Shown here in pieces: positions 15,696-62,844 of a stretch of DNA of 64,000 nt (the first letter of the stretch is position 1; the number at the start of each line of letters is the position of its first letter). Location: NCBI GenBank assembly GCA_032622095.1, contig CP136062.1, positions 226,936,578 through 227,000,577 of the forward strand, given 5' to 3'. The position numbers and the translations under genes were made by a program. Under the pieces are notes generated by a model, which was not told the DNA's origin, did no database searches, and saw only the letters and a program-made list of their open reading frames with translations. The stretch comes from Siphonodentalium dalli (Eukaryota; Mollusca; Scaphopoda; Gadilida; Siphonodentaliidae).

Positions 15696-15699
15696 GAAA

Positions 15700-37858: not shown

Positions 37859-38017
37859 TTAAATAGCGTTGAGGACGGCTTCCGATACATCAGATGACAA
37901 GTCGACGAAGAAGGTCAAATGTGAAGATCCATTGCATGTCCCACTCTTCATGAGTCCGACAACGATTTTCTCCCCTGTTGTGGTTTCTGTGCACGTGACT
38001 GGTCCGCCTGCGTCACC
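37859..38017 (-). CDS. Pseudoprotease exon 7: Ser195 lost, C-terminus
   Basis: 159 bp, acceptor cgttaccag, phase 0, stop TAA. It starts GDAGGPVTC: Ser195 is Ala418, while Asp194 and the GG stay. Cys424 (201) and the later SGTC (220) complete two disulfides. A homologous orphan exon is at 7367-7528. Confidence 0.88.
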   Translation of the reverse strand, partial: GDAGGPVTCTETTTGEKIVVGLMKSGTCNGSSHLTFFVDLSSDVSEAVLNAI

Positions 38018-41000
38018 CTGGTAACGGAAATGAAAGATGCATAACATTTGAACGAGTAACTATGGCGTTTATTTATAGTTACAATAATACTATTATAAGT
38101 TACCCACTGTTCATTGTTTTTACCGTGATGCTTGCTCACATGCAAACTAATGCGTCATCGTCTTATATTTACACACTAAGTGTTGTCATCACTAAATCCA
38201 GCATTCTGATTGGTCGGCGCCCACGTGGCTAGTTGCAGTTATTTCTCGGTGAATGCGTAACGCCTCATGACACCAAGCTAATAACACCATCGATACGTCA
38301 TTAGGTTTGGAAAGACGAACGCGTAATGTTTTGGGCGCATTTGGACTCGCGCAGGATTGACTTAATACATCATCGGGTTTCAACATGAAGAGAAATTGTT
38401 CCTATTAACTTTTGCCAAGGGTGCTATTGGGTATTTTGGGCTGATCTTGTCACGATACACTTTTCGATTTAAATATATTTACAAAAGTGGCTTTTTCTCT
38501 AAATGTATATAAATATAAGGATTAACTGTCATGTGGACTATTTTTATGGAGATGTAACGGTGAGGTAAGCGGACATAACTTGTATATATGTCCACTTACC
38601 TCACCGTTACATCTCCATAAAAACAGTCCACATGACAGTTAATCCTTATATATGCACGACTGCCACGACAGCGACGGAGCATCGACCCCGCCCCCGTTCG
38701 AAGTAGAATGCATATCTACTCAGAATCTACATGTAACAATATGACAAATAAATAGCGACTGATTTGAAATCAAGACATATCGAGAAATTTATACGCGATA
38801 TATACGATGATGAAAAATCGTCTGGAGCAAATAAGCTTCGTACGTATAGATCTATTAAGAGTGAGTATATAATGGAGCCTTTCCTCGAACACACACGATG
38901 CCACGAAGCGCGAGAAATGTTTATATGACTTCGTATTAGTAATCACAATTTGGAAATAGAAAAAGGTAGACATAAATAACAGAAAACTCCAGTTAAAACA
39001 AAACAGATTGTGTACAATGTGCGATCAGGCACGTGTTGAAACTGAATATAATTTTGTTATCGAGTGTAGTGCATACTCTGATCTCAGGGCAAGACTATTT
39101 CGAAATATTCAAGAAAATAAGGGTGAATTTAAAAAAATGAGCGATAGTGAACAATTTCAAACGATTATGAGAAATTATGAAGTAAAGATTATAAATACCG
39201 TATGCAACATGATCCGGTTGTTCTTTCTCAGAAGGGGGTCTTTGAATGTTTAGTGTATTATAGTGATAAACATGAGAAGTTATTGGTGGTAGTTGAATGA
39301 TGATGCATTGCATCAAACAGTTATATTGAACACAATTTATTTTTGTTTGTATTTACATGTTTTAAGTTCTAATTCATATTGTAACTTGCAACTGCCTATA
39401 TATCAGGCCCTGTTTCATGAAGGCAACTTATGACATAGTTGGGACTTAAGATGGTCATAAGTTCAAACTTCAGTCATAAGTGCGTTTCACGAACAAGGTC
39501 TTAACTTAAGATGGTCTACACTTTGGTCTTAACTTTAAGACCGGTGTGAGGTGTCTTAAGATAATCTTAAAGTTAAGACCTACATTATGATCCGCATTTG
39601 GTCCGAAATGTGGATGGGATCTAATATATTTCCATAGAGTTTGACATCATTTGCGATTCAAATCACACAATCGTACTGTATACAATAATCAGGTTGAGAC
39701 AATTAGTCCGAACATTTTCACATCGAGGATAATATTGAATGATTTATATACAGCTATGTCGGCTATTATTATTATTATTATTATTTACTTGCCTTTCTAT
39801 ATTATTATGTTAGGATTGTACATTTTGGAAATAATAACGTATATATGTACCCCGTATATATATCGGCAGGGTATAATCATACATAATATATATTATTTTA
39901 TTATTATGATGTATATTATCATAATCCACCCTCGTGAATCTCAGATCCTATACATTTATTACATCTGCATCACATGTTTACTAACTATGAAATATAAAAA
40001 ATATATAGCATGTATATAGTATACGGACCGCGGGCTCTTCGGGATCCGCGAAAGAACATATATCACTGTGAACCGGCCGTCTATTCACGTGTTGTTAATT
40101 AAAATAAACGCTCTTTATTAGAAATCGTCGCTTTGGTTTTATTAAAACATCTATGAAAATTTGTCGTTCAACATAGCCATGTACGTACTTTCGAAGTTCA
40201 TACGCAGTTTGCTAATTATAACAGGCGTTTAGCATATTTCTCAACAGAACCAGAGCAAATGGCATTAACATCATTTATATATGGCTTCTACAATTATGTC
40301 TCAGATTGGAAATAAGTCTATTTGGAGCACGATATGAAGTACTATTCACATTACAGCAATATAAATAAAGAGCGTTTTGTATTAGTATTCCATGAATTTT
40401 GGCAATTAATAAAGAGCGTTTAGCTCGGAACTTCCATCGTGGTGTATTGCATGTGTATGCCCCCGTGGCGACCTATTCGGTTTCCTAGTAGTATAGATGC
40501 TTCAAATACATTTAATGTATTAGAACCTAATATCAGCAAACGAAATGAGTGAACATATGCCCCGCATCACCTTAATGGCATGTTATATGGGTGAAGGTTC
40601 ACCTTCGGAGTTACGATGTATAAGTCCCTTTAATAACTGAAATAATATATTGGGGCTCGTTACGTTTGTATATAATAGGCATTGGAAGCATGCAGCTATG
40701 TGTGGATGGAATCTGACGCGAAATTATACAGTTAAATAGCGCGCTTATGAGGTTAAGTATGCACCAGCCATTATACTAATTATCGCCCTTGCATTACAAT
40801 ATCATAATTCTTCTTATACACGCCCTAGTATCTATCACGAGACACTGTACCTAGGCATATAACATACACAGAACCAATATTTTCTGCGCATAGCTGTAAT
40901 AAATTGCCGAGAGCCAGTCTAAAAGCGCGCGAACTTAACTTCCTACTTGAGATGGACTTAAGATTGTTTTATGAAACGCGTTCGTGAAACGGAAAAGTAA

Positions 41001-44000
41001 CATCATAAGATCCACCTTAGATCTTAGATTAAGACCATCTTAAGATAATCTTATGACCTTGCTTCATGAAACAGGGCCATGGCGTATTGCAATAAATATT
41101 GTATTCTATTTATATTCTGTAACATTGTTAAACTATATTACATATTATGCCAGAATTCGCCGTTTAAAGGGGCACTATACACTAAATCCGGCCATTTATG
41201 GGACCATCATCTCCTTTTATACTCAACAGAATATTATGCAACATATAAATGAATTTGAGCCATGGATTGAGTGTCATAAACTCATTTTAATTAATATATC
41301 TCTAGGTGATGTATGCGAACGGGCGCCTTCGGAAGCTGATTTAAATATGCACGTGTGCGCCCTTGTGTAGTTTGGCGGATTTGTGTGAACGATTTGATAC
41401 CCCCTTTGTTTCCTGATTTCAGTGTTCTCTTTATTTTTTCAAACTCATGTATATAATTTGAGGACCACCTGTTTGCAAATGGTCAATTATTACATGTGTA
41501 ATGTATTCTTCATATAATGGCGGACAATAAAGATATATATATATATAAAATACGTTTTGCTTGTTTCACTGTTATCTGTAACTTTCCAATAAATCAATAA
41601 ATCAATTAATAAATCGAAAGTTAAGTGTTTCTGCTAGCCACAAATGTAGATCTCATAAACCTCCTCTGGAGGACTATACTTACAGCACATGCCGCTGATG
41701 ATGATCCGCTTGGAGATGTGCAGCCAACGCTGGATGCATCGTTAAAAGATACGAGATCGGGGTCGAGAGCGGATACCAAGGAGAGGATATTGGCGCAGTC
41801 CGATTCGACTTCCACATCGCCGGAAACCAACAGCGACTGTGGTCCGGCTACAAATGGAGAGGAGAGTGATTTAAAATAAAAAGACAACAGTTAATTAACC
41901 CTTTACCCAACAGAAGGGCCCTGTGCCAATGCATTCTCTTATATATGCGAGTCGACCATAGGTAGCCTCGCATATATAAGAGAATGCATTGGCGTAACAC
42001 ATTAAAAATTATAAAATTGTTAAAGAATGTAAGAAAAAGTGTTAAAAAAAAGATTTGGTTAGGCCAATGCATTCTCTTATATATGCGAGGCGACCAATGG
42101 TCGACTCGCATGTATAAGAGAATGCATTGGCACAGGGCATAACTGTAACCATCACAATGTGGTCAATGAGCCGCTTCCAATGATATCCATATTTGTATGG
42201 TTTTATTGAGACAGACCCAAGATAATTTAGGCTGTTGCAGCTTTATTTGGCCGTTTTGGCCGGTTTGTTGGGTAAAGGGTTAACTGTAGCGTATGGTGTT
42301 TCTCCTCGAGTGAGATGCGGAGGATTATTTTCACGAGTCCCCAGACCAGTGAAAATAATCCTCGCATCTCACGAGAGGAGAAAAAACATGCGCTACTCAG
42401 AACATTTGACTGTTGTGTTTATTATATTGTTTATACCAGTTTGTTACGACCCATAACACAATGAAACAAACGGTTAGACCTATATTACGTTCTTAAAGCT
42501 AAATTATCACCAGACATTTCTGTTAAAATAATGTGCAAGGATACCGAATGACGCACAAATTGACGGCATGACTCAGGGCTGTGAGTAGGATAACATCTTG
42601 AGAGTAGGATAACATCTTGAGAGTAGGATAACATCTTGGGAGTAGGATAACATCTCGAGAGTAGGATAACATCTTGAGAGTAGGATAACATCTTGAGAGT
42701 AGGATAACATGTTGAGAGTAGGATAACATGTTGAGAGTAGGATAACATCTTGATAGTAGGATAACATCTTGGGAGTAGGATAACATATTGATAGTAGGAT
42801 AACATCTTGATAGTAGGATAACATCTTGATAGTAGGATAACATCTTGAGAGTATGATAACATGTTGAGAGTAGGATAACATCTTGATAGTAGGATAACAT
42901 CTTGAGAGTAGGATAACATATTGATAGTAGGATAACATCTTGATAGTAGGATAACATCTTGAGAGTAGGATAACATCGTGAGAGTAGGATAACATACTGA
43001 GAGTAGGATAACATCGTGAGAGTAGGATAACATCGTGAGAGTAGGATAACATCGTGGGAGTAGGATAACATCGTGAGAGTAGGATAACATACTGAGAGTA
43101 GGATAACATACTGAGAGTAGGATAACATCGTGAGAGTAGGATAACATCGTGCGAGTATGATAACATCGTGGGAGTAGGATAACATCGTGAGAGTAGGATA
43201 ACATACTGAGAGTAGGATAACATATTGATAGTAGGATAACATCTTGATAGTAGGATAACATCTTGATAGTAGGATAACATCTTGAGAGTAGGATAACATC
43301 TTGAGAGTAGGATAACATCTTGAGAGTAAGATAACATCGTGAGAATAGGATAACATACTGAGAGTAGGATAACATACTGAGAGTAGGATAACATACTGAG
43401 AGTAGGACAACACGTTCGGGCTTCTGTGAGTGGGGGTATGATTTATATTTTTGGCGTAAACATTTGATGAAAATAAAATAAACATAATTTAGTTTTAATG
43501 AGGTTGGAATTGGAACATGTTAGTAGTTAGACACATATTTCATGATATAGGCGTATATACACATGGCTTCTTGGACCCGTCGTGTCATTCTAATAATATA
43601 CAAAATTCGTACAATGACGGCATATCCGTGGGAATGACGAAAGTGAATCAGTGATTATATATATATTTATTTATTACATGATACTACCACTATTCCATTC
43701 AATAAACCTATTCTATAAATTGTGATATTAAACGTTCGTTTAATAACAGGAAATAGTGCCAGGTGACATTTGACTTCCGGTTTGTCGTCTGTTAACATTC
43801 CGTACGTTATGTCTCAAAATACTATGGCTTCCAATATTTATGTATTTTTTGTCGATGTTTTGGATAATGTAATAAATAGAATATATAACCCCAGTTTATA
43901 GCGGGAATTACAAAACTCGTCTAGTAAATTATAGATCTGGACCTCGCCAAAGGCTCGGTCCAGACCTAATTTACTGGACTCGTTTTGCAAATTCCGCTAT

Positions 44001-47000
44001 AAACCGCGGACTCGTTGCAGATGCTCTCTCTATATTATATTGATAACACTTGCAAAGTGTCCTTCCAAAACGAATGCAGTAAAAACATTTAATTAAAAAT
44101 AGAATGTCACCGCCTTCCGCTTTAACCCTTTACCCAACAAACCGGCCAAAACCGGGCAAATAAAGCTTCAACAGCCTAAAATATATTCGGTCTTTCTCAA
44201 TAGAACCATACAAATATGGATATCATTGGAACCGGCTCCTTGACCACATTGTGATAGTTACAGTTATGCCCTGTGCCAATGCATTCTCTTATATATGCGA
44301 ATCGACCATATGTCGCCTCGCATATATAAGAGAATGCCTTGGCCTAAAAAAAATTGTTTTTTAACACTTTTTACCATTTTTTCTTACATTCTTTAACAAT
44401 TTTATAATTTTTAATGTGTTAAGCCAATGCATTCTCTTATATATGCGAGGCGACCTATGGTCGACTCGCATATATAAGAGAATGCATTGGCTCAGGGCCC
44501 TTCTGTTGGGTAAAGGGTGTGAATGGAGCTGCTTACCAGGTCTCTATTTAGCGTCTAGATACGACGAAGCCTTCACAGTACGAGTGACCTTGCTCAGGGG
44601 TCACAACTAGACGCGAGATATGAACATCGTATAACTCTACAGTCACACTACACTTAAAACTAGAAACCCAGCTACGGTGAGCTGCCGAACTCATGTGTAC
44701 AGCGACTGCAAGTTTAAAACTTTAACCGGTGAGGTGCCGAACTCATGTGTACAGCGACTACAAGTTTAAAACTTTAACCGGTGAGGTGCCGAACTCATGT
44801 GTACAGCGACTGCAAGTTTAAAACTTTAACCGGTGAGGTGCCGAACTCATGTGTACAGCGACTACAAGCTTAACACTATAACCGGTGAGGTGCCGAACTC
44901 ATGTGTACAGCTACCACAAGTTTAACACTCTAACCGGTGAGCTGCATAACTCAAGTGTACAGCGACTACAAGTTTAACACTCTAACCGGTGAGCTGCATA
45001 ACTCAAGTGTACAGCGACTGCATGTTTAACACTCTAACCGGTGAGCTGCCGAACTCATGTGTATATCGACTGCATGTTTAACACTCTAACCTGTGAGCTG
45101 CATAACTCATGTGTACAGCGACTGCATGTTTAACACTCTAACCGGTGAGCTGCATAACTCATGTGTACAGCGACTACAAGTTTAACACTCTAACCGGTGA
45201 GGTGCCGAACTCATGTATACAGCTACCACAAGTTTAACACTCTAACCGGTGAGGTGCCGAACTCATGTGTACAGCGACTGCAAGTTCAACACTCTAACCG
45301 GTGAGCTGCCGAACTCATGTGTACATCGACCACAAGTTTAACACTCTAACCGGTGAGGTGCCGAACTCATGTGTACAGCGACTACAAGTTTAACACTATA
45401 ACCGGTGAGGTGCCGAACTCATGTGTACAGCGACTATAAGTTTAACACTATAACCGGTGAGGTGCCGAACTCATGTGTACAGCGACTGCATGTTTAACAC
45501 TCTAACCGGTGAGCTGCCGAACTCATGTGTACAGCTACTACAAGTTTAACACTCTAACCGGTGAGCTGCATAACTCAAGTGTACAGCGACTACAAGTTTA
45601 ACACTCTAACCGGTGAGGTGCCGAACTCATGTATACAGCTACCACAAGTTTAACACTCTAACCGGTGAGCTGAGCTGCCGAACTCATGTGTACATCGACC
45701 ACAAGTTTAACACTCTAACCGGTGAGGTGCCGAACTCATGTATACAGCTACCACAAGTTTAACACTCTAACCGGTGAGGTGCCGAACTCATGTGTACAGC
45801 GACTACACGTTTAACACTCTAACCGGTGAGGTGCCGAACTCATGTGTACAGCGACTACAAGTTTAACACTCTAACCGGTGAGGTGCCGAACTCATGTGTA
45901 CAGCGACTACAAGTTTAACACTCTAACCGGTGAGGTGCCGAACTCATGTGTACAGCGACTACAAGTTTAACACTCTAACGGTGAGCTGCCGAACTCATGT
46001 GTACAGCGACTACAAGTTTAACACTCTAACCGGTGAGGTGCCGAACGCATGTGTACAGCGACTACAAGTATAACACTCTAACCGGTGAGGTGCCGAACTC
46101 ATGTGTACAGCGACAACAAGTTTAACTCTATAACCGATCTGGTGCCGAACTCATGTGTACAGCGACCACAAGTTTAACACTCTAACCGATGAGGTGCCGA
46201 ACTCATGTATACAGCTACCACAAGTTTAACACTCTAACCGGTGAGGTGCCGAACTCATGTGTACAGCGACTACAAGTTTAACACTCTAACCGGTGAGGTG
46301 CCGAACTCATGTGTACAGCGACTACAAGCTTAACACTCTAACCGGTGAGGTGCCGAACTCATGTGTACAGCGACTACAAGTTTAACACTCTAACCGGTGA
46401 GGTGCCGAACTCATGTGTACAGCGACTACAAGTTTAACACTCTAACCGGTGAGCTGCCGAACTCATGTGTACATCGACCACAAGTTTAACACTCTAACCG
46501 GTGAGGTGCCGAACTCATGTATACAGCTACCACAAGTTTAACACTCTAACCGGTGAGGTGCCGAACTCATGTGTACAGCGACTACACGTTTAACAATCTA
46601 ACCGGTGAGCTGCCGAATATGTTAACTGGCATTCAGTATTCACCCTCTGCTAACTGGTATTCAGTGTTCATCCCTCTGCTAACTGGTATTCAGTGTTCAC
46701 CCTCTGCTAACTGGTATTCAGTGTTCACCCCTCTGGTAACTGTTATTCAGTGTTCACCCCTATGTTAAATGGTATTCAGTGTTCACCCCTCTGCTAACTG
46801 GTATTCCGTGTTCACCCCCTCTGTTAACTGACATTCCGTTTTCACCCCCTCTGCTAACTGGTATTTATGATTCAGGGGGAGGGTGTGACACCCTGATGAA
46901 TTATATAACTCACTTCCAGTCGTGTCTTCTCCCCATCCTACAATTTCACATGTCGTTGGGTCCACCTGGATGGTGCTGTCCTTGGATTCCAAACATGCCG

Positions 47001-50000
47001 GCGCTACACATCTGTCGAATGTCACAGCTTCACTCAATGTCATGGTAACGAGACCGCTGGCTGTAAATAAGAAATGTAAAATCATATCACAAATTTATAA
47101 TACCCCAATCAGCCACCTACCGATGCAAGTTATCCTATGCGGTCCGGTGACCGAAGTTATTTATTGTAAAGATCTTTACACAATCCGATTCGATGGTCCC
47201 CGTATCACCAGATCGCAACAACAACAAAAAAAAAAAAAAAAAAAAAAAAAAAACAACAACACAACAACAACAACAACAATATTTAAAAAGACGCTTTAGT
47301 TATCATGATCTATTAATTACCAAAAGATAATGTTATCCACTGTCAACTCAAGTATACAATTTTCCAAATCGTTAGATATCAATATTTTGTACAACGCAAT
47401 AGAGAGTATGTCGGTCGGCTCGTCGAATATTTGCTAGGCCGTCAAATATTCCAGGTTGTGAAAAATAACAAATTTCAATAATCGATATCTGATAACTCTG
47501 AGTTTTGATGGGTGGTACCTCGGCTCGAATAATAAAATAACGTTTACCCCCGAAGCCAAAGAAATGGTAATTTAGGAGCGTTAATTCGGATTATGTATCT
47601 TTAAATGATGTCAACGGCTTATGCATTGTATTAGCGCCGTATTCCTTGATTGACCAATCTTAATTAATGCAGTGCGAAATCGTTTTCGTTAGTTTAGCTC
47701 CGATAGTTGCGTTTCCCATAGGGAAGTAAATATTTACAATTGAGCGTAGTTCAGACGATGTTTTCTATGGAGTGGTATGGTCGATTTGCTTCATATTTTC
47801 GGCGATGTTAGTAGAATGCTACATTCCTCCAGTTGGCATAGCGCCAAGCAGTCTCTTAGAAAAGCCGACGAAAATCCTATATCGGATGTAAGTCTCTAGA
47901 ACTCTCTATTAAAATTAGGTTCTGTATTGAAGGGATTCCCTCCATTTCATTGGAGAGTGGCGCAGACTGCGCGCAATTTCAGTGGTTTATGGCATAGCAG
48001 ATCACGTCAGAGATCAGAGGTCAAAGACGTTTTGACAATTTTCTCACGCATTATCAAAATCAACTATTGTTGGAAAACTGAATACAGGCGATACATGCAT
48101 AATTAATTTTACTCATCGAAATATATATGGAGACATCATCTTTGATTTATATATATGGAAACATCATCTTTGATTTATCAGTCAACGATATTCATGAATA
48201 GTTTATTCTTCCACCATTATAAATGGTACAAAGAATGGATCAAACAACACATGATACGATATATACATACAAGACAATAGAGGACAGTGTGTGTGCATCT
48301 GATTATGGACAAGATAGCCCACCTGTTGCGCGCTCCCAGCGCACGCCCACCGCTACTGAGTTCGGCTCTTAGAGTCGAACTTAGTAACCCTGGTTATACG
48401 ATGGTAGCGCCCAACGACATGAGCTATGGTTCCGAATCAGCTATGATCATATGCTAAATTATGGAAAAGACAGTGTATAACGTGCGGGTGCATTTCAACC
48501 GTTTACTCGGGAGAACTACCAGTTTTTTTCATTAAAAAAATTAACAAATTTACTCAGTATCTTCAATGACTGATTATTCTATCGCATCTAGTTGTATTTA
48601 TTACTATTTCTAAACACTACGATTCTCACAAACATTTACTACGCCAGGAATGCACTCCATATTTGGAAACGTTAGGATATTCGTCGGCTTTTCAAAGAGA
48701 CTGAGCGCCAGAATGCTAACTTATTAGTTTCACGCACCCGAACAATTGCATAATATGTATTTAAACATTGACATACTTGGATCCTCGGTTGTGCTGGAGA
48801 CGACAATATCCTGATCCCCGGGTTCATCTACCTGCCACATGTATTCTCCTACTGTCACCTGATAATTGGTTCCACTGTAATTAAAATTATGGTGATTTAA
48901 ACATATTTTATTATCCCTCTATACACATATACAGATAAATGTAGCAGAATTGATGATGTGAATGCGACGCGATAAAGGGATCAGAGCACAATATTAGTTA
49001 TAGAAATTATGGAAGCTCCTATCCATTATGTGTACCGATAATATTGATTCATTTCATTTTGGGCTCAATGAAACCAAACAAACCATTAACATTGAGTTTT
49101 ATTTGTATATATATTATCCTGGTATACAACATGCATCAAACCATTATTGGTACCAAACGTCTTTCTACTAAACGTCCAATTTGACAACATGACTGAAATT
49201 TGGGAAATAATGAAATATTCCATATCCAACAGCTGGTCCGGAGACATATACCTGTTATTGATACAAATTTTGTCAATATATATTTGTGTAATGAATCTGT
49301 GTACCGTCTAAAGACTCCGTTAGTTCTATAAAGCCACATTATTTCAACTTTCTGATAACGAAATCGTCAGCCATTTTTACTTTGTTTTAACAACAAGGCG
49401 TGGTCAGGTCGTGATGAACCATTGGCCCGAATGAAATCACGTGACTTTTACTATAAACTTAGTAAAATAGCACGTGAAACGATTTTACCGCTCATATGAT
49501 TTCAGATTAACCCAATGCATGACGTATTACCACTATATTATCACTATATTACCACTATATTATCACTATATATCACTATATTATCACTATATATTAACCC
49601 AATGCATGACGTATTATCACGATTTATTAACCTAATGCATGACGTATTATCACTATATTAACACCCGATTACTGCGCTGTTGGGCTAAAATTCCACCCAA
49701 GGAAATTTAGAGTGAAGGAATTTTGTTTTCGCAATAGTGAAATTCACAAAAGAGCACATCTAATGATGCTATTTAGTGAATTCTCGTTAAAAATATGAAT
49801 TGCAGGAAGGAATTTTAATATTGGTTTAGTGTGTATATATCTACATATTTACAGTTTCGGAAAACATAAATATTGCAAAAATATGAGATAAAAAATAGCT
49901 GAATTGTGAATTTTGCTGGAAACGGGACCCACTTCACGCAGTCGCGATCCGGCGTCTAGCGTGCGATAGAGTACAGCGTACTGATCCAAACACCCAGAAT

Positions 50001-53000
50001 GCGGCGTATACGAAATAGGGGATGTTCAACAGAAAAATTTATTAAACTGACATTGGCATCGCAGCGATAATAGAATGTCGAAAACAACAATGAGAACTGA
50101 TGGAAAATCTTTTATTTTTTCAATGCTTGTTTTTCTCGTAAAAAGCGGACCTACCCCATGATATCATGTTATAAAAGAACAAGTTTTGCGTAAATATTGA
50201 AACTAGGAGCCCATTCTCTTGAATAGTGCTATATAATTGTTCAGTTTATAAGGCTGTATATTTAAACTAATTTTAGTAGTCATAATTTATATTTAAACAT
50301 GGATTTGGAAAAAAACATTACATGACATTGAACAAATCTGCTATCGGCTCTGACCCACCCACCGAGCCGGACCTGGAGTTTTCTCCCGCCCCACTTCAGG
50401 GTACCCCGCACCCGGCCTCAACATTACATGTAGTATTACTGACAATGACGCGACGGGTGGTATCCTCAACATTACATGTAGTATTACTGACAATGGCGTG
50501 AGCATGTAAAGGGGTGGTATCCTCAACATTACATGTGGATTACTTACAATGGCGTGAGCATGTATAGGGGGTGGTAACCTCAATATTACATGTGGTATCA
50601 CTTACAATGACGCGACGGGGTGGTATCCTCAACATTACATGTAGTATTACTGACTATGGCGTGAGCATGTAAAGGGTGTGGTAGCCTCAACATTACGTGT
50701 GGTATTACTTTCAATGGCGTGAGCATGTATAGGGGGTGGTAGCCTCAATATTACATGTGGTATCACTTACAATGACGGGACGGGGTAGTATCATCAACAC
50801 TACATGTAGTATTACTGACTATGGCGTGAGCATGTAAAGGGTGTGGTAGCCTCAACATTACATGTGGTATTACTTACAATGGCGTGAGCATGTATAGGGG
50901 GTGGTAGCCTCAATATTACATGTGGTATCACTTACAATGACGCGACGGGGTGGTATCCAGGGATGTGGGGGGGGGTGTATCACCCCCCCCAGCAGAGAGC
51001 TATATTTTCAATAGTTGGAAATTTCATACCTGCCACAACTAAATTTCACACCAACAATAGGTTGAAAATGTTCTTGTAGTTTGATTATAAAACAATTTAT
51101 TGTTTTTCGACCAATATTTGCATATGATCCTATTTTTGGTAAATTTTTTTGACAGAAATGGTCATCAGTTGGAAATTTTCCAACCTTAGGGGGGTGACAG
51201 GTTGGAAATTTCCAACACTTGGAAAGCTTGTGTCCTGGTCCCTCCCCCGTGGCCAGTCAAAAACTTCTAGTTAATTTAAGAAAACAATATTGTCATACAA
51301 TTGGTCAACATTGTCATTGGAATTGTCATCAGTTGGAAATTTTCCAACCTAAGTGGGGGTGTAGGGTTTGAAATTTCCAACAGTAGGAAGGCTTGAGGCT
51401 AGTCTAGATGTTAGGATTTTGCGATTTTCTTGTTCAGATTTCAAAATTTTCGCACACCGGGCCGAACCATGGTCGGCCCGGTGTGTCATTGTCCCATCCA
51501 CATGGCCAATACAAAACTGATAATTAGTTTAGCAAAACAATATTTTACTACATTTGGTAAACTTGTAGACATAAATGGTCATCAGTTGAAGAATTTTCCA
51601 ACCTCAGGTTGGAAAATTCCAACACTAGGAAAGCTTCAGTTGAGGCCAGTCTAGATGCTAGGATTTGCGATTTTCTTGTATAGTTTTAAAAATTTTCTCA
51701 CACCGGGCCAAACAACCATGGTCGGCCCGGTATTTCCTGGTCTGTTGTCGGTAGCTGTGTGCATTTGTCTGGAATTAGATTACTAGTTGTTTTTTTTTGG
51801 GGCAATTTTCAGGTTAAAATATCTTAATGTTCTCATACCGGGAAAATAGAAGCATGGTTTATGAATATATAGGAAATTAGGCCTGAGCATGAGGTACAAG
51901 GGGGGGGGGGGGTGCATATGGAATTATGCAAAAAGTTGTGTTGGTGCGATTCCGACTCAAGGGGGGGGGGGGGGGGTGCAAATGGAATTATGCAAAAAGT
52001 TGTGTTGGTGCGATTCCGACTCAAGGGAGGGGGGTGCAAATGGAATTATGCAAAAAGTTGTGTTGGTGTGATTCCGACTCAAGGGGGGGGGGGGGGGTGC
52101 AGTTGGAAATTCCCAAGGTGGACACCCCCCCCCCCCCCCCCAGCGGAGACCCTCTAGCCACATCCCCGGTGGTATCCTCAACATTACATGTAGTATTACT
52201 GACAATGGCGTGAGCATGTAAAGGGGTGGTATCCTCAACATTACATGTGGATTACTTACAATGGCGTGAGCATGTATAGGGGGTGGTAACCTCAATATTA
52301 CATGTGGTATCACTTACAATGACGCGACGGGGTGGTATCCTCAACATTACATGTAGTATTACTGACTATGGCGTGAGCATGTAAAGGGTGTGGTAGCCTC
52401 AACATTACGTGTGGTATTACTTACAATGGCGTGAGCATGTATAGGGGTGGTAGCCTCAATATTACATGTGGTATTACTTTCAATGGCGTGAGCATGTATA
52501 GGGGGGGTGGTAGCCTCAATATTACATGTGGTATCACTTACAATGACGCGACGGGGTGGTATCCTCAACATTACATGTAGTATTACTTACAATGGCGCGA
52601 TGGGGTGGTATATACCCACAACATTACATGTAGTATTACTGACAATAATGGCGTGAGCATGTAAAGGGGGATGGTACCCTCAACATTACATGTGACAGTA
52701 CTTACAATGGCGCGAGCGAGTCAGTGCACTCCTTGGTAGTAACCACGTGGGTAGCGTCGACGAGCATTCCAGTACACAGTGGTGGGAGGCTGACTCCGGT
52801 AACGCTGGGTTTGATGGCCGCCAGCCATGGGTCGTGGCACTGATAGTCGACGTTTCCATGGTCAATACGAGAGATGACGGTGTCCTCGTAGTTAGAATAC
52901 TCACATTCTATAACGAGTAAGAACACGGTGGGGAATCACGTGATGTCGAGTTGATGAGTACCACGCATTAAAAATGGCCGAGGCGATCGAAAACGCTACC

Positions 53001-56000
53001 AGAACAAAAGTAATGACCTAAGATATGACGTATTACATTGTATTTTGTTACGAGCAGATGCTATACTATTTTTCAAACAAGCTGACAACTTATTTGTGTC
53101 GAAATTCACATTTGTTTGCTCCAACATACTGACAAAAATTGTCAGTGGAAGGATTCTCCAAGATGTATGGACTGGTGTGTTCCACCTCCGATGGCAACTT
53201 TGGTCAGAATGTTATAGAAAACCACTGAGTATTTCCGAGCAAATAAGGTATCAACTTATTTCAAAAATAAAATATCATATGCTCGTAACAGTCAAACTGT
53301 TTTTGTGTCAGTTCCTCGTATATTATGTTTTGTTTTGTACGTTTGCATTAGCCCCTCGGCAATTTTTTATGCGTGGTACTCGCCAACCTCGGAACCACAT
53401 GATTCCCCTACCGTGAAGAAACAAAGTCAGAACGAACGGCGATGTGTCATTATCACTCGCCACACAGAGACGGAATTAAAAATTAAATTAGAGCATATTA
53501 ATTATTAACTGAATGATTAACTATTTTGGCATCCCGAAAACCCCTACACCCGTAAAAATCCCAGGTACCTACGTAGGTACTATATATACTTGTTCCGTGT
53601 GGAGTACCAAAATGTTGGTACAATGGAGTGCCTGTCCTGGTAATCCGCGCTAACTAATCAGTGACTACATGAATAGTTCTTTTAAACTAATCAGTGACTA
53701 CATGGATAGTTCTTTTAAACTAATCAGTGACTACATGGATAGTTCTTTAACCCTTTGAGTGCCAGGTCTATTTTTGTATCAACCCATATACCCTGTGCCA
53801 ATGCATTCTCTTATATATGCGAGTCGATCATAGGTCTCCTCGCATATATAAGAGAATGCATTGGCCTAACAATTTTTTTTATTTTTTTTTTACAATGTTT
53901 TACAATTTTAATAATTTATTCTTATATTCTTTAACATACTTATTTTGTAGGTTTAGGGCCGATGAGATCGGCCCCTGGCACTCAAAGGGTTAAACTATTC
54001 AGTTTACTATATAACTCTTAATAAGCTCTCTCATGAAAATGATCACTTTATGGACTTATAATCTATTTTAGGTTAATAATGGACTAATTTTGAGTCCATA
54101 GCGAACTGAATTTTACATGTATAAGTGTCATTACCGACTCATTTTACATGTATAAGTGCCATTACCGACTCATTTTACATGTATAAGTGCCATTACCGAC
54201 TCATTTTACATGTATAAGTGCCATCACCGACTCATTTTATATGTATAAGTGCCATTACCGACTCATTTTACATTTATAAGTGCCATTACCGACTCATTTT
54301 ACATGTATAAGTGCCATTACCGACTCATTTTACATGTATAAGTGCCGTTACCGACTCATTTTATATGTATACGTGCCATTACCGACTCATTTTACATGTA
54401 TAAGTGCCATTACCGACTCATTTTACATGTATAAGTGCCATCACCGACTCATTTTACATGTATAAGTGCCATCACCGACTCATTTTATATGTATAAGTGC
54501 CATCACCGACTCATTTTATATGTATAAGTGCCATCACCGACTCATTTTACATGTATAAGCGCCATTACCGACTCATTTTACATGTATAAGTGCCATTACC
54601 GACTCATTTTACATGTATAAGTGCCATCACCGACTCATTTTACATGTATAAGTGCCATCACCGACTCATTTTATATGTATAAGTGCCATCACCGACTCAT
54701 TTTATATGTATAAGTGCCATCACCGACTCATTTTACATGTATACGTGCCATTACCGACTCATTTTACATGTATAAGTGCCATTACCGACTCATTTTACAT
54801 GTATAAGTGCCATTACCGACTCATTTTACATGTATAAGTGCCATAACCGACTCATTTTACATGTATAAGTGCCATTACCGACTCATTTTATATGTATACG
54901 TGCCATTACCGACTCATTTTACATGTATAAGTGCCATTACCGACTCATTTTACATGTATAAGTGCCATTACCGACTCATTTTACATGTATAAGTGCCATA
55001 ACCGACTCATTTGACATGTATACGTGCCATTACCGACTCATTTTACATATATAAGTGACATTACCGACTCATTTTATATGTATAAGTGCCATTACCGACT
55101 CATTTTACATGTATAAGTGCCATTACCGACTCATTTACATGTATAAGTGCCATTACCGACTCATTTTACATGTATAAGTGCCATCACCGACTCATTTTAC
55201 ATGTATAAGTGCCATCACCGACTCATTTTACATTTATAAGTGCCATTACCGACTCATTTTACATGTATAAGTGCCATTACCGACTCATTTTACATGTATA
55301 AGTGCCATTACCGACTCATTTTACATGTATACGTGCCATTACCGACTCATTTTACATGTATAAGTGCCATCACCGACTCATTTTAAATTTATAAGTGCCA
55401 TTACCGACTCATTTACATGTATAAGTGCCATTACCGACTCATTTTACATGTATAAGTGCCATCACCGACTCATTTTACATGTATACGTGCCATCACCGAC
55501 TCATTTTACATTTATAAGTGCCATTACCGACTCATTTTACATGTATAAGTGCCATTACCGACTCATTTTATATGTATACGTGCCATTACCGACTCATTTT
55601 ACATGTATAAGTGCCATTACCGACTCATTTACATGTATAAGTGCCATTACCGACTCATTTTACATGTATAAGTGCCATCACCGACTCATTTTACATGTAT
55701 AAGTGCCATCACCGACTCATTTTACATTTATAAGTGCCATTACCGACTTATTTTACATGTATAAGTGCCATTACCGACTCATTTTACATGTATAAGTGCC
55801 ATTGCCGACTCATTTTACATGTATACGTGCCATTACCGACTCATTTTACATGTATAACTGCCATTACCGACTCATTTTATATGTATAAGTGCCATTACCG
55901 ACTCAGTTTGACTTATTATAAGTTCATTATGGGCGGAGATTTATATGAATAAACCATCTCGTGACTTAATTACCAGATGCATGCTCTTTAAAATGTGTTT

Positions 56001-59000
56001 TCACTGTGGCCCGCGCAATAAAACGGAATAACGGGTATCAGTTCACGATGGGCTTATTTCAGAATCAAATAATCCAATATGAACATATGTGAATGTTATA
56101 CGTCGAGTTACGAATCTCACGCGCGGATATGTTGTTTAAATCCATAGATGGGAAGAACTTATTTGCCTTCCCTATAAGCTCCCGGCATATTTCCAATTAC
56201 ATGCACACAAATCACCCAGCCTGTAAATAGCGCACACACAATCGATGCTGGGAGAGCTTGAATCTGCAATACTGTTAAACAAACAAATGTGTTCTAAAAA
56301 TAGGTTGACATTTGACATGAACAATTGAACTCTCGGTCTCGACTTTCCGAGCCACATGGGCTGCGATTGTCTGATCATGTTTATCTCAGCCAATCATATT
56401 TAACGTTGCGCACAGACGGTTGTTAGAAAAGTAGTTCAATTCAAATTGGATTTTCTTTTAGTGCAATAATGCAATTTATTTAATAAATCGCCACCGACCG
56501 GTTGGTATTCGCCGACCAGACTGACATCATAGTACTCAAGTCACCTCGATAACTATGAACTCGAGACCTTCGAACTAGTGATTTCACCATCTAATGACCC
56601 GCGGTATTCACCACTGTATACAGTGTACACTAACATTAAACCCTATCACAACGGCGAAGACATTAATTTTGTGCTATGCTGCGTAACGCCAAATTTTTTA
56701 TTTCTACAAGGCCGAGAAAATTGGTCACCTGAACGTCATCTTCACCATTTATATACTGAATACGCATTAACCCTTTACCCAACAAAACGGCCAAAAACGC
56801 CCAAATAAAGCTTCAACAGCCTAAAATATCTTCGGTCTGTCTCAATAAAACCATACAAATATGGATATCATTGGAACCGGCTCATTGACCACATTGTGAT
56901 GGTTACAGTTATGCCCTGTGCCAATGCATTCTCTTATATATGCGAGTCGGTCATAGGTCGCCTCGCATATATAAGAGAATGCATTGTCCTAACAAAAAAT
57001 CTTTTTTTTAACACTTTTTACCATTTTTTCTTACATTCTTTAACAATTTTATAATTTTTAATGTGTTAAGCCAATGCATTCTCTTATACATGCGAGGCGA
57101 CCTATGGTCGACTCGCATATATAAGAGAATGCATTGGCACAGGGCCCTTCTGTTGGGTAAAGGGTTAATCATTAGTAAATGTTCAGATAATAAGCTCAAC
57201 AAACTATCATACACGTATATCTGAACATTTCCATTTCCCACCAATGAATGTGAATCAGCCTGCTCTTGTATTATCTCTTTTTCTGCCTGACGTCTGCTTA
57301 TATTACATGAATACCCCTCCGAATAAATAATATACCGTTCCAATGTATACTGTTATAACTGAATGAGAGAATCCATTTAGTAATTAAAGGGAATTAACTC
57401 ACTCTTGGATACCACCGTGGTAGTTGATGCGGCGGTCGTTGTAGTGGTTGCGGCCGTGGTTGTCGTTGTGGCGGTGGTCGTGGTTGTTGCCGCGGTGGTT
57501 GTGGTTGTTGCCGCGGTGGTTGTCGTTGTTGCCGCGGTGGTTGTGGTTGTTGCCGCGGTGGTTGTCGTTGTTGCCGCGGTGGTTGTGGTTGTTGCCGCGG
57601 CGGTTGTTGTGGTTGCCGCGGTTGTTGTTGTTGTTGCCGCTGCGGTCGTCGTTGTTGCCGCGGTAGTTGTCGTTGTGGAGGTTATACCACACGAACTCTT
57701 GTAGTTGGTGCTGCACCTGCTACACCATGTTGGACAATACTGGTTATAGAGATAATAGTAATATGTTCTCGGTACTGTGGTCAGTCTTGATGTGTATCCG
57801 CAAGTTGTTTCTGTCAAAATCGAGAGCAGCAAATATTCAGGGCATAAACAAAATAATGGCATTAAAGCAACACATCATACCTTGCATGATGCCTCGAATT
57901 TAACATAGTACACGTGTGTTCATGTTACCTTATATGGAAATCAAAATAAGACAATAAACTCAGGAACCACTTTTTTCTACGGACATGTTATCAACAGCCC
58001 ACTACCTCCATTGCTTACATAAGGGTATAATATAGGTAGTCTCGTTCCTATAGTTCAGACGAGCTTTATTTTGTCAACGTATAGCTTTATTAGGTGTGTA
58101 CTACTTAATTCCATGACGTAAATGTATATGCTCATTGCGCAAGTAACGCCAAGGTGCAAAACAGAGTTCAGTCCCCTCGCCACGCTATGCCTGACCGCTG
58201 CCGGCATGTGTATTTCTTAATTAAATCTAACATGTTTTTATTTAAGTGTTTTGTCAGTTACAATTCATTCTGGCTTGGTCTAGACACTTTTCAAATGAAT
58301 ATGGACAGTTCAGTTTCTCCGAATAAATGCAGAATGAAATGTAACCTATAACAAAAAAACTCTCAAATAAATAAATGTGCGATATCTTCACATTATGTAT
58401 AGGTGCTGGCAGCTGTGAGTCCTGTGTAGGGGACTGAACTCTGCATGTAGTTTGAGGTAACGTATGTGCGTCTATCAGCCCAAATAACGTCATTGTGATT
58501 TGGGAACGTTTTAATGGTCCATAATTCACAGTAATTGATACAAAATGCGTAAAAAGATATGTGTTTTCGCTCTAAAACATATAAAGCATTCGAACATTGC
58601 CAGTTTAAAATAACTACAAAAAAAAAAATATTTCGTTATAAGCTGCACTACTGTTTACCCACGCCATGAATGCTAATTAGTTTGAAAGGCATGTTTTGTG
58701 CAATGTATAACTAAAATATATAATGCTGTCTTTTAAACGGACATGCCTGAACAATATTTGCTAATGACAGAGCTATTTTCCAACTCTATTAAATTTTCGC
58801 AATGGGGTGAAACAAACGCTCTTTATTTCTACCGTATTAGGACTAGACTAACAAGGTACGCTCTTTATTGTTCCATGCCGAATAACGTTCGGGGCCCAAA
58901 TGTTCTCAATTCTACAATTAGATCACTAGAATTTATCTCAATGTGGCATAAACATATAACACTGTGCCGCGATGTCACAAAAGCGAGCATAATTTGTGAC

Positions 59001-62000: not shown

Positions 62001-62784
62001 CAATTAATCAAATCAGATTTGCCTGTCGCAATGCCTCGGTGTTGACCGTGAATTATAACGGACACGAATTTTGCTCACAGGAACGAATACCGTTTTCTTT
62101 CTGTGCGCATTTCTATATCAACCCGTTTACACTAGTATGCGTGTAGAACTGTATACAGATCTACAGCAATGTAAATGCACCCTTATGTCGAATCGTTCAC
62201 TGCCATATTATAATCTTCGGAACACAGATATGTTATAATAATGACTTCAATCACATACATTGTTAGGTTATCTTGTCATTATAATGGTTTATTATTGTTT
62301 ATGCTGTGCGTATGTGCATGTCGTATAACTGTAGTCTCATCTGATTGTCAGTTCTGACATGTGCTCAATATCCATATATTTGTTCAAATAACGAGAACTT
62401 CCCATTAAAGTAATTGAAAAGTATTTTAAAAGGTATTGTAAATTATTATATTTGTAATTGACATTTTGGAAATAATTGTAATTAAATACTTTGTGCAAGT
62501 AATCGGCCCACACCTGCAGTGCACATACATTGACACCACAAACATTATATACACTCACCGTATGTCAAACAGAAGTCTGGGTATGAAGTTGGTTCGCATG
62601 AGTACGCATTAGCCGCGCAGAAGTTGTACATCGTGTATGGCTGGTTATATGGGTTGTAATAGCTATATGATCCATATGAACTGTAGTTTGGGTCTCTGTA
62701 AGAATGGTAGTGCCTAGATCCCACTTCTACGGTATCAGTTGCCAGGACAACCGAAACGCACACCAAGACTGCGAGACGAAGCAT
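37859..62784 (-). CDS. Secreted ShK-like/mucin-linker trypsin homolog (pseudoprotease), 7 exons
   Basis: Exons 62784-62559, 57810-57403, 52907-52706, 48874-48777, 47060-46914, 41847-41684 and 38017-37859 join in phases 1,1,2,1,1,0 to 467 codons. Layout: signal peptide 1-15; Tyr/Ser/Pro-rich 26-53; ShK-like cysteine domain 56-108; Thr/Ala-rich linker about 119-208; S1 (trypsin-fold) domain 226-467. The activation site is Arg225-Ile226. Cysteines matching the 42-58, 136-201, 168-182 and 191-220 disulfides and the 1-122 link are present, as is Asp194. The catalytic positions are Glu271 (His57), Gly314 (Asp102) and Ala418 (Ser195), and the pocket residue 189 is Ala412. Hence the fold is kept but not the chemistry. 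In other animals such homologs act as cofactors or binding proteins; the role here is unknown. The long linker suggests an extracellular or mucus protein. Confidence 0.85.
38168..38648 (-). mobile_element. 481-bp foldback element at TATA, inverted copy
   Basis: Inverted copy of 20953-21459. TATA flanks both sides (38164-38167 and 38649-38652). The palindrome has a shorter centre than in the other copy. It lies in intron 6, about 150 bp upstream of exon 7. Confidence 0.75.
38780..39253 (+). pseudogene. Decayed LINE, C-terminal cysteine region
   Basis: Plus-strand translation shows NKLRTYRSIK, then (after a stop where Arg would be expected, near 38930) LRISNHNLEIEKGRH, a frameshift near 38975, and CTMCDQARVETEYNFVIEC. 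This is the end of a LINE reverse-transcriptase protein with its C-x2-C zinc-knuckle-like motif, a type frequent in marine invertebrates. The frame then runs to TAG at 39253. It is non-functional, lies in intron 6 and is antisense to the host gene. Confidence 0.75.
39406..41078. mobile_element. 1.67-kb TIR element without recognisable transposase
   Basis: The termini are GGCCCTGTTTCATGAAGGCAA and its near-complement at the right, followed inward by further inverted aagatggtc and cttaagataatctta words over about 170 bp. The interior is AT-rich with a short att repeat (39764-39785) and no transposase motif. Target duplication is not clear. It lies in intron 6. Confidence 0.65.
41684..41847 (-). 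CDS. Pseudoprotease exon 6
   Basis: 164 bp, acceptor atttgtag, donor gtaagt, phase 1 in and phase 0 out. It carries Cys378 (168) and Cys403 (182) and ends SSSAACA, where active enzymes have DSCQ before GDSGG. Residue 189 at the bottom of the specificity pocket is Ala412. This exon supplied the missing join between exons 5 and 7. Confidence 0.8.
41899..42279 (+). mobile_element. piggyBac-type MITE, double hairpin
   Basis: 381 bp flanked by perfect TTAA (41895-41898 and 42280-42283), ends CCCTTTACCCAACA and its complement. It has two internal palindromes of about 68 bp in opposite orientation. It lies in intron 5, about 50 bp upstream of exon 6's acceptor. Confidence 0.85.
42287..42399. repeat. 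Palindrome next to the piggyBac-type MITE
   Basis: Arms of about 50 bp (gagatgcggaggattatttt and its complement) around a 10-bp centre, starting a few bases after the TTAA of the neighbouring MITE. Confidence 0.6.
42578..43410. repeat. 19-bp satellite array
   Basis: About 44 units of 19 bp (gagagtaggataacatctt) with variants in the last bases (ctt, gtt, att, act, cgt). Groups of variants recur, for example the cgt/act block at 42970-43210. It keeps three minus-strand frames open for about 300 codons; these are artefacts. It lies in intron 5. Confidence 0.95.
43500..44125. other. Intronic DNA with a palindrome
   Basis: Intron 5 sequence. A near-palindrome at about 43897-44010 has arms tttatagcgggaatt...ctcgtctagtaaatt and their complement around a centre at about 43955. 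No other feature. Confidence 0.45.
44126..44517 (-). mobile_element. piggyBac-type MITE, double hairpin, inverted
   Basis: It starts CCCTTTACCCAACA after TTAA (44122-44125) and ends TGTTGGGTAAAGGG, but the right flank reads TGTG, so the duplication is lost. Two internal hairpins are as in the sister copies. It lies in intron 5. Confidence 0.75.
44640..46615. repeat. 52-bp satellite array
   Basis: About 38 units of 52 bp with the words gccgaactcatgtgtacagc, gtttaacactctaaccggtg. Variants (gctgcataactca, tatacagctacc) recur in clusters. It lies in intron 5 and is followed directly by a 30-bp array. Confidence 0.95.
46617..46866. repeat. 30-bp tandem repeat next to exon 5 donor
   Basis: About eight units on ctctgctaactggtattcag followed by tgttcacccc. 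It ends about 47 bp from the exon 5 splice donor (46913). Confidence 0.9.
46914..47060 (-). CDS. Pseudoprotease exon 5: Asp102 lost
   Basis: 147 bp, acceptor tatttacag, donor gtgagt, phase 1 on both sides. SGLVTMTLSEAVTF replaces the usual NDIALLKLSEPVTF, so Asp102 is Gly314. It continues with CVAPACLE (Cys122) and CEIVGWGED (Cys136). Sequence similarity to S1 proteases is clear apart from the catalytic site. Confidence 0.85.
47215..47280. repeat. A-run and CAA microsatellite
   Basis: An A-run of about 28 bp between (caa)n stretches in intron 4. Confidence 0.85.
47661..47846. repeat. Dispersed repeat, interrupted copy
   Basis: It matches 29365-29600 (gaaatcgttttcgttagttt, cagacgatgttttctatgga, gatgttagtagaatg). 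The match resumes at 48704-48770 after an inserted element. Confidence 0.6.
47847..48703. mobile_element. 857-bp TIR element within a dispersed repeat
   Basis: The ends carry CAGTCTCTTAGAAAAGCCGA and its near-complement. AGCGCCA is duplicated on both sides (47840-47846 and 48704-48710). It sits in intron 4, about 75 bp from exon 4's donor. No transposase. Confidence 0.65.
48777..48874 (-). CDS. Pseudoprotease exon 4
   Basis: 98 bp, acceptor taattacag, donor gtatgt, phases 2 and 1. It encodes residues 279-312: NYQVTVGEYMWQVDEPGDQD then IVVSSTTEDP, which fits the strand pair and loop preceding Asp102 in S1 proteases (V.VG, D.PG.Q). It is short but open only in the phase required by its neighbours. 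Confidence 0.8.
48885..50390. other. Intron 3 proximal sequence
   Basis: It includes an inverted copy of the dispersed repeat at 15436/17144 (about 49345-49452) and short repeats of cactatattatcactatat and atgacgtatta (49515-49660). No gene. Confidence 0.45.
50400..50957. repeat. Splice-donor-derived minisatellite, part 1
   Basis: Units of about 55-62 bp built from cctcaacattacatg, tgg/tagtatta(c), cttacaatggcgtgagc and atgtaaaggggtgg. On the minus strand each unit carries CGCCATT|GTAAGT or CGCCATT|GTCAGT, the same bases as the end of exon 3 and its donor at 52706, and the following tacatgtaatgttgagg is the start of intron 3. The array continues at 52169 beyond an inserted hAT-like element. 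Confidence 0.85.
50958..52168. mobile_element. hAT-like element, 1.2 kb, with 8-bp target duplication
   Basis: The ends are CAGGGATGTGG and the complement of CCACATCCCCG. GTGGTATC is perfectly duplicated (50950-50957 and 52169-52176) and is the repeat unit's own sequence, so it landed in the minisatellite. The interior repeats ttggaaatttccaac-type palindromes, two short hairpins on caccgggccg (about 51455-51488 and 51700-51733) and a G-rich 63-bp array. It encodes no transposase. It is related to 19911-20362. Confidence 0.8.
51890..52100. repeat. 63-bp repeat with long G-runs
   Basis: Three to four units of tgcaaatggaattatgcaaa then gttgtgttggtgcgattccg, separated by G-runs of 13 (51900-51912), 16 (51961-51976) and 15 (52083-52097). 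A C-run follows at about 52127-52140. Confidence 0.9.
52169..52690. repeat. Splice-donor-derived minisatellite, part 2
   Basis: Continuation of the array at 50400-50957, with the same order of unit variants as 50455-50640. It runs into the genuine exon 3 donor: the final unit is the real splice junction at 52706/52705. Confidence 0.85.
52706..52907 (-). CDS. Pseudoprotease exon 3: start of protease-like domain, His57 lost
   Basis: 202 bp, acceptor cgttatag, donor gtaagt. It encodes the activation junction SR|IDHG (IVGG in active enzymes), PWLAAI, LCTGMLV around Cys42, and VVTTKEC where TAAHC is expected. The histidine is Glu271. The 5' splice site of this exon is the seed of the downstream tandem array (50400-52690), and a Transib-like element ends 16 bp upstream of the exon. 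Confidence 0.85.
52924..53415. mobile_element. Transib-like non-autonomous element beside exon 3
   Basis: 492 bp with ends CACGGTGGGGAATCACGTG and the complement of a similar right end, flanked by AAGAA on both sides (52919-52923 and 53416-53420). It is the same family as 32948-34369. Arms of about 60 bp share gagtaccacgcat. Its left target copy supplies the pyrimidine bases (ttctt, minus strand) just upstream of exon 3's acceptor. No transposase. Confidence 0.6.
53651..53750. repeat. 33-bp tandem repeat
   Basis: About three units of actaatcagtgactacatgg then atagttctttta in intron 2, ended by the TTAA of the adjacent MITE. Confidence 0.85.
53751..53989. mobile_element. piggyBac-type MITE, second family sharing the hairpin
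   Basis: 239 bp flanked by TTAA (53747-53750 and 53990-53993). The ends are CCCTTTGAGTGCCAGG and its complement, different from the CCCTTTACCC family after the first six bases. It nevertheless carries one copy of the same about 68-bp hairpin (about 53797-53863). It lies in intron 2. Confidence 0.8.
54105..55905. repeat. 31-bp satellite array
   Basis: About 58 units of 31 bp (ccattaccgactcattttac then atgtataagtg). Few substitutions: cat/cac, tat/cat, aag/acg. A 93-bp (three-unit) period keeps short frames open, without meaning. It lies in intron 2. Confidence 0.95.
55910..56766. other. Intron 2 sequence, nothing recognised
   Basis: No repeats or exons were recognised between the 31-bp satellite and the next MITE. 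Confidence 0.35.
56771..57164 (-). mobile_element. piggyBac-type MITE, double hairpin
   Basis: 394 bp with perfect TTAA on both sides (56767-56770 and 57165-57168), ends CCCTTTACCCAACA and its complement, and two internal hairpins. It lies in intron 2, 238 bp from exon 2's donor. Confidence 0.85.
57175..57390. repeat. Satellite-like monomer plus segment shared with 63330-63510
   Basis: The first part contains aatgttcagataataag, as in the 68-bp satellite. The rest (cgtctgctta, ccatttagt and spacing between them) is a diverged copy of 63340-63500. It lies just inside intron 2 next to exon 2's donor. Confidence 0.55.
57403..57810 (-). CDS. Pseudoprotease exon 2: rest of ShK-like domain and Thr/Ala-rich linker
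   Basis: 408 bp between acceptor tttgacag and donor gtgagt, phase 1 on both sides. It opens with Cys79 and ends the cysteine domain as CPTWCSRC (101-108), the C-x3-C-x2-C close typical of ShK domains, plus Cys116. About 90 residues of Thr with Ala pairs follow, a likely O-glycosylated stalk. The DNA of the linker is a short-period coding repeat, so length variation is expected. Confidence 0.85.
58163..58443. mobile_element. Possible short TIR element
   Basis: CAGAGTTCAGTCCCCT starts the left side and its complement ends the right side, 280 bp apart. No target duplication found. It lies in intron 1. Confidence 0.5.
59216..59672. repeat. 29-bp tandem repeat, very homogeneous
   Basis: About 15-16 units of 29 bp (aacatggtac tacgtcaata then taatttatg) with almost no differences between units, implying recent expansion. 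It lies in intron 1. Confidence 0.95.
59680..61630. other. Intron 1 sequence, nothing recognised
   Basis: No exon, tandem array or transposon end was recognised. A small repeat of cccggcttactg occurs at about 60213 and 60261. Confidence 0.35.
61635..62182. mobile_element. PIF/Harbinger-like MITE
   Basis: 548 bp. The ends are GGGACGTTTACATTGGTG and the complement of CAATGTAAATGCACCC. TTA is duplicated (61632-61634 and 62183-62185). It lies in intron 1, about 380 bp from exon 1. No transposase. Confidence 0.75.
62559..62784 (-). CDS. Pseudoprotease exon 1: signal peptide, Tyr-rich stretch, first cysteines
   Basis: 226 bp, ending in phase 1 at the donor gtgagt. Residues 1-15 are a signal peptide (MLRLAVLVCVSVVLA). 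Residues 26-53 are rich in Tyr, Ser, Asn and Pro (SSYGSYSYYNPY). Cys56, Cys63 and Cys72 start the ShK-like domain. The start is supported by a TATA box 53-60 bp upstream. Confidence 0.85.
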
Positions 62785-62836: not shown

Positions 62837-62844
62837 TTTTTATA
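62837..62844 (-). promoter_or_regulatory. TATA box of the pseudoprotease gene
   Basis: TATAAAAA on the minus strand, 53-60 bp upstream of the start codon at 62784. With the usual 30-bp spacing, transcription would begin near 62810 and leave a 5' UTR of about 25 nt. A TATA promoter with a very short leader is common for highly expressed secreted proteins. Confidence 0.6.

Follow-up and report, generated by a model that had tools for sequence, protein, structure and literature searches.

The 64,000-nucleotide stretch of Siphonodentalium dalli DNA analyzed here (hereafter, the window) contains a seven-exon gene on its minus strand whose product has the makeup of a serine protease homolog (SPH), that is, an S1 fold in which at least one residue of the catalytic triad is missing, and here all three are. 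The reading favored below, at a probability of about 0.42, is that this SPH is a secreted-looking, non-catalytic extracellular adaptor. Because the triad is gone and a nearby copy of the last exon also lacks the serine, the protease-like shape has probably been retained for a job other than cutting.

The gene runs from a start at 62784 to a stop at 37859. Its seven exons join into 1404 nt, which encode 467 amino acids plus the stop codon with no internal stop, and all six introns begin with GT and end with AG (12/12 canonical splice dinucleotides), with phases of 1, 1, 2, 1, 1, and 0. A preliminary description of this DNA had proposed seven exons in consistent phases without a stop; its coordinates are right, and the splice dinucleotides, phases, and open frame all agree with it, the minus strand being a detail that it did not give. 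GC3 of the exons is 0.48-0.64, and the GC content of the window, taken per 4-kb piece, is 0.32-0.44. A TATA-like element, TATAAAAA, at 62837..62844 on the minus strand lies 60 bases 5' of the ATG and is a possible core promoter; another TATAAA is found at 62889. An AATAAA positioned 361 bases 3' of the stop codon is a candidate signal by sequence only.

Exon 1 (62559..62784; this and the other six exons are on the minus strand) carries the ATG, a signal-peptide-like N-terminus, a Tyr-rich segment, and cysteines 1 to 3 of an eight-Cys module, and it ends in phase 1 at a GTGAGT donor. Exon 2 (57403..57810) supplies the other five cysteines of this module and a Thr/Ala linker. Exons 3 through 7 encode the S1 (trypsin) domain. 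Exon 3 (52706..52907) contains the equivalent of Cys1, an activation-type site at R225/I226 (52869-52864), Cys42, E271 at the position of His57 (52731-52729), and Cys58. Exon 4 (48777..48874) covers the segment from about position 60 to about position 100 in chymotrypsin numbering, with a loop before 102 that is shorter than that of chymotrypsinogen, and exon 5 (46914..47060) contains G314 at the position of Asp102 (47055-47053), an extra cysteine at 117, Cys122, Cys136, and a GWG sequence. Exon 6 (41684..41847) provides Cys168, a longer 168-182 loop, Cys182, and SSAA followed by Cys191. Finally, exon 7 (37859..38017) encodes Gly193, Asp194, A418 at the position of Ser195 (38011-38009), Cys201, the segment GLMKSG in place of GIVSWG, Cys220, and the TAA stop.

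Searched alone, the S1 domain matches the Pfam Trypsin family (PF00089) with 73.1 bits and an E value of 3.8e-20 (cut-off, 20.6 bits), over profile positions 11 to 213 of 220. Given this score and span, the match is not a matter of chance. When the full-length protein was searched against Pfam, the Trypsin family was absent from the listing, probably an effect of the biased composition of the Thr/Ala linker; this suggests that full-length profile annotation may overlook the S1 domain in proteins with such a linker. DUF1986 was rejected as a match to the domain (18.6 and 20.0 bits against a cut-off of 25.2), as were four weak Pfam matches of the full-length protein, which lie in its low-complexity part and fall below the cut-off. 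An NCBIfam search gave no match at E ≤1. A comparison of viral contigs with the S1 domain yielded five pattern stretches, none of which was confirmed. The best PDB sequence match of the domain is plasminogen (E 1.1e-13). Plasminogen and HGF-like proteins have a kringle architecture, and the HGF-like proteins are also catalytically dead; that S1 domains of this group are the best PDB matches implies no close relationship.

Residues of the S1 domain were placed by reference to bovine chymotrypsinogen A, identical to PDB 1acb_E, using a MAFFT alignment and four pairwise settings. The two proteins share 55 identities in 231 aligned residues. All ten core cysteines (1, 42, 58, 122, 136, 168, 182, 191, 201, and 220) align by MAFFT, and Cys168 is missed in one of the four pairwise settings; thus, the expected disulfide cysteines do survive, as the preliminary description had it. 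Their positions predict the disulfides 1-122, 42-58, 136-201, 168-182, and 191-220. Two extra cysteines, residues 235 and 329 (chymotrypsin positions 25 and 117), are encoded at 52839-52837 and 47010-47008 and could possibly form a sixth disulfide with each other.

In five of five alignments, His57 is replaced by Glu (E271), Asp102 by Gly (G314), and Ser195 by Ala (A418), which are the replacements that had been proposed. None of the three residues of an active S1A peptidase is therefore present and, as judged from the predicted protein, catalysis is lost. Also as proposed, the Arg/Ile site and Asp194 are kept: MAFFT and all four pairwise settings agree in placing R225/I226 at 15/16 and G416-D417 at Gly193-Asp194. 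Elsewhere in the window, the patterns used found no strings of the His57, Asp102, or Ser195 type in an S1 context. Three triad-like strings, ALHC (minus strand, 53631, within intron 2), AKHC (minus strand, 13346), and DSGG (plus strand, 46869), have no S1 context by eye.

A second copy of the last exon is present on the plus strand at 7367..7528. First seen as an open frame (7289-7525, plus strand) and matched by exon 7 in a tblastn search within the window (E 1.2e-18), it has an in-phase AG acceptor, Val at the position of Ser195 (7373-7375, in the sequence GDVGGP), and a TAG stop at 7526-7528. The gene that contains exon 7 and this paralogous exon are convergent. Of 52 residues, 33 are identical in the two copies, which share the motif GD[AV]GGPVTC.ETTTGE.IVVGL.KSGTC across positions 193-220. 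In their intron and 3' flanks, similarity is no higher than that of shuffled sequence; therefore, the exon pair is not a recent duplicate. Two base steps separate Ser (TCN) from Val (GTN), as against one between Ala and Val, which makes a non-Ser ancestral codon the simpler assumption: the exon from which both copies derive would already have been without Ser at 195. No other exons of the paralog were found in bases 1-7366, the search for exon 6 was negative under both strict and loose rules, and tblastn was convincing for exon 7 only. The paralog may be a stray exon, or it may extend beyond the left edge of the window.

Searches outside the window with the exon-7 pair gave 79 pattern stretches in viral contigs, none of them confirmed, and 23 stretches in genome contigs, of which a Streptomyces locus was the lone one confirmed; with 25 residues at 48% identity, it was taken as a short chance match. 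Two Artemis chains, the sole PDB matches to a profile of the pair (E 0.16), were rejected.

Comparison of the 52 codons of the exon pair by the Nei-Gojobori method gives a dS of 0.70, a dN of 0.355, and an omega of 0.51, with a codon bootstrap interval of 0.25-1.00 in which 2.6% of replicates reach 1. Maximum likelihood (Biopython) gives a dN of 0.36 and a dS of 0.75, and a Fisher test of synonymous and nonsynonymous changes across all 52 codons has p 0.078. The exon was also split at Cys220, a natural border chosen post hoc with the alignment already seen. Within the first 28 codons (193-220), 24 of 28 residues are identical and omega is 0.19 (Fisher p 0.002), as against 9 identical residues of 24 and an omega of 0.985 (Fisher p 1.0) in the 24 codons past Cys220; the contrast in identity between the two parts has a Fisher p of 0.0005. 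Together with the existence of a second exon copy lacking Ser195, the omega values for the exon as a whole and for 193-220, which rest on a total of 52 codons and, in the second case, on a split made post hoc, support the idea, already put forward in the preliminary description, that the fold is under selection for a non-enzymatic role.

An SPH acting as an extracellular adaptor would work as follows. The protein would be secreted, and a trypsin-like protease would cut it after Arg225. The new N-terminus, Ile226, would then pair with Asp417 and lock the S1 domain; retention of the Arg/Ile site, Ile16, and Asp194 suggests such a zymogen-type switch. After cleavage, the N-terminal part would be held on by a bond between Cys213 and Cys334 (Cys1-Cys122), and the Tyr-rich segment, the eight-Cys module, and the linker (if glycosylated) could anchor the domain in mucus or a matrix, or could permit oligomers to form. 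As an adaptor or cofactor, the S1 domain would engage a partner through a surface near the 193-220 loops, as in insect clip-domain SPHs, and this cofactor step is the least certain of the series. For the partner-binding face, the conserved 193-220 block is the leading candidate. Several findings weigh against the adaptor reading: the omega near 0.99 for the 24 codons past Cys220, the whole-exon p of 0.078, and the bootstrap interval that touches 1; the absence of a clip or other known regulatory domain by Pfam profile; and the dependence of the cleft residues on the alignment, together with the chance that the paralog is a stray exon. A further-reaching version, which is tentative and rather doubtful, posits that dead S1 proteins of this type make up a lineage-specific family: the once catalytic loops at 193-220 would now be a conserved partner-binding surface, the Arg/Ile site would be a cleavage switch, and the front half (Tyr-rich segment, eight-Cys module, and Thr/Ala linker) would set the domain in mucus or matrix. 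If such a family exists, a cofactor like the clip-domain SPHs would have evolved independently of clip-domain proteins.

The N-terminal half of the protein is the ground for the main rival explanation. Residues 1 to 16 are signal-peptide-like, as judged by eye, and the segment that follows is rich in Tyr (10 of 39 residues). The eight cysteines of the module have spacings of 6, 8, 6, 21, 3, 2, and 7. Residues 118-208 form the Thr/Ala linker (57413..57685, minus strand), in which 62 of 91 residues are Thr and 25 of 91 are Ala and which is encoded by 12.2 copies of a 21-bp repeat (57423-57676). As a long Thr/Ser-rich tandem repeat, it is mucin-like, with two Ser residues and no Pro. It had been called a mucin stalk; by its place in the predicted protein, between the eight-Cys module and the S1 domain, it is an internal linker and not a stalk. 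The label of an ShK-like domain fares no better. The ending of the module, C-x3-C-x2-C, does resemble that of ShK, but this is the sole resemblance; the module has eight cysteines rather than the six of ShK, as well as a gap of 21 residues. None of three versions of the region had a listed match to the Pfam ShK profile at E ≤10 (a search in which HMMER filters discard most matches above 0.1), and the region has no relative among PDB sequences. When the protein is set against S1 and ShK models, as the preliminary description had suggested, a match to the S1 profile is listed for the isolated domain and none to the ShK profile for the module. Three chains of CREB-binding protein (PDB, E 2.8-3.7) were rejected as relatives of the module, as was DUF6945, which appeared with shorter cuts of it at E 0.11-0.19, below the cut-off. 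A clip domain is likewise a disulfide module; none was found, and the N-terminal 120 amino acids have no listed Pfam family.

These features could also belong to a protein with a structural role in mucus, adhesive, or a shell-type matrix, in which the S1 fold would serve as a stable, disulfide-locked module, the Tyr segment and Cys module would crosslink, and the linker would bear glycans. The Tyr-rich N-terminus, the eight-Cys module, and the Thr/Ala linker all speak for such a role. There is also an analogue in limpet adhesive mucus, P-vulgata_8, in which a protease domain without its catalytic motif is coupled to Ser-Pro-Thr-Thr repeats; it differs from the product described here in its metalloprotease (reprolysin) fold and in having its repeats toward the C-terminus (PMC7333891). 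However, a structural role leaves unexplained the retention of the R/I site and Asp194 and the conservation of 193-220 in the exon pair. It is a genuine possibility, if a somewhat unlikely one.

The substrate cleft bears on another explanation, in which the protein acts as a decoy, capturing protease inhibitors or substrates but leaving them uncut. The fold and Gly193 are kept, as a decoy would require, and position 216 could be Gly if GLMKSG is laid on GIVSWG by eye, although MAFFT and the pairwise alignments place these residues otherwise. Against this, no alignment retains Ser214 or Trp215 (Leu-Met-Lys at 214-216 by MAFFT; Lys at 214 and a gap at 215-216 in all four pairwise settings). In addition, position 226 is not Gly but Thr (MAFFT), Leu (three of four pairwise settings), or unaligned (one of four), and position 102 is preceded by a shorter loop. 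Serpins, moreover, require the catalytic serine. The preliminary description had also placed Ala at 189; that residue is Ala in the MAFFT alignment and when set opposite plasminogen, but Ser410 takes its place in all four pairwise settings, and positions 189-190 together are read as Ala by MAFFT and as Ser by the pairwise settings. Ala at 189 alone would not prove loss of the pocket. The exact residues at 189, 216, and 226 thus vary with the alignment and are uncertain, and it is likely, from the residues that line the cleft, that substrate binding is lost. A decoy is improbable.

The triad changes at three positions and the omega near 0.99 past Cys220 in the exon pair could also be the marks of a former protease gene that is decaying and is still unbroken. 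This is very unlikely, given the open frame, the 12/12 canonical splice dinucleotides, the retention of ten core cysteines, and the omega of 0.19 at 193-220. In simulations of unselected point substitutions (without indels), 10 of 2000 runs kept an open frame at d=0.1, and 0 of 2000 did so at either d=0.2 or d=0.35. That the exon model is wrong, or that another isoform restores the triad, is the least probable explanation: the A-x-H-C string in intron 2 (ALHC) would be its starting point, but its surroundings do not look like S1 by eye, the phases and splice sites are consistent throughout, and, with the patterns used, the exon 7 motif is the sole other triad-type string on the minus strand across the gene.

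Inactive S1 homologs are common; in Tenebrio, 125 of 269 S1A sequences are inactive (PMC11172050). Insect SPHs require proteolytic cleavage and are cofactors for prophenoloxidase activation (PMC10540698, PMC6901238). Drosophila cSPH35 and cSPH242, clip-domain SPHs, resemble the present product in having an N-terminal disulfide module followed by an S1 fold that lacks a working catalytic residue, and the cleavage that clip-domain SPHs need for function has a counterpart here in the activation-type site that is kept; unlike these proteins, in which Gly replaces Ser, the product here has lost the whole triad, has no clip domain, and has a Thr/Ala repeat linker (PMC10540698). Since no clip domain was found, the gene product is not a member of the clip-domain SPHs.

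To our knowledge, the Tc-MUC mucins of Toxocara have no S1 domain. They are similar in being secreted mucins with a cysteine module (SXC/ShKT) and are reported to lack a toxin-like function, but the module has six cysteines rather than the eight found here (PMC7333891). The pairing of a Cys module with a mucin is already known (PMC7333891). So is that of ShKT with trypsin, examples being Nv174 of Nematostella (PMC4877951) and the trypsin-like domain named among the partners of ShKT (PMC6409789). Such proteins also combine a Cys module and an S1 domain in a single chain; Nv174, however, is labelled a chymotrypsin in a table of that paper (PMC4877951), and here the S1 domain is inactive, the module has no ShKT profile support, and a Thr/Ala linker lies between the two. 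The domain order had been called unusual. In part this holds, in that the exact order of Cys module, Thr/Ala linker, and fully dead S1 domain was not recognized in the literature among the matches listed, where names may differ; the two component pairings are familiar. The pseudoprotease itself is of a common kind. What is newer, and goes beyond an ordinary SPH, is the loss of the full triad together with a serine-less paralogous exon, and with the core cysteines and zymogen-type site this makes a clean case for asking what role an S1 fold plays once cutting is lost.

The remainder of the window is rich in repeats, and 16-mers repeated within it cover 38% of its length. Neither a tRNA scan nor an Rfam scan at the gathering threshold gave a match in the window, and Pfam searches of ten stretches, including the paralogous exon, found no family over its cut-off. 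Open stretches at 30570-30899 (minus strand) and 38960-39250 (plus strand), for which Pfam likewise gave no match above cut-off, presumably resemble the C-terminal ends of non-LTR reverse transcriptases. Large tandem arrays are located at 8265-10920, 15698-17039, 17541-19298, 42583-43412, 44675-46617, and 54110-55909, with periods of 68, 52, 27, 19, 52, and 31 bp, respectively, the last three lying within introns of the gene. Long open frames on both strands of the array at 17.5-19.3 kb are best taken as repeat artefacts. An inverted repeat at 38513-38651, in the intron 5' of exon 7, has 65-nt arms that are 97% complementary and a spacer of 9 nt, and is MITE-like. At 33647-34117, the two copies of a 234 bp tandem duplication match at 100%, and the duplication is thus very recent or recently homogenized.
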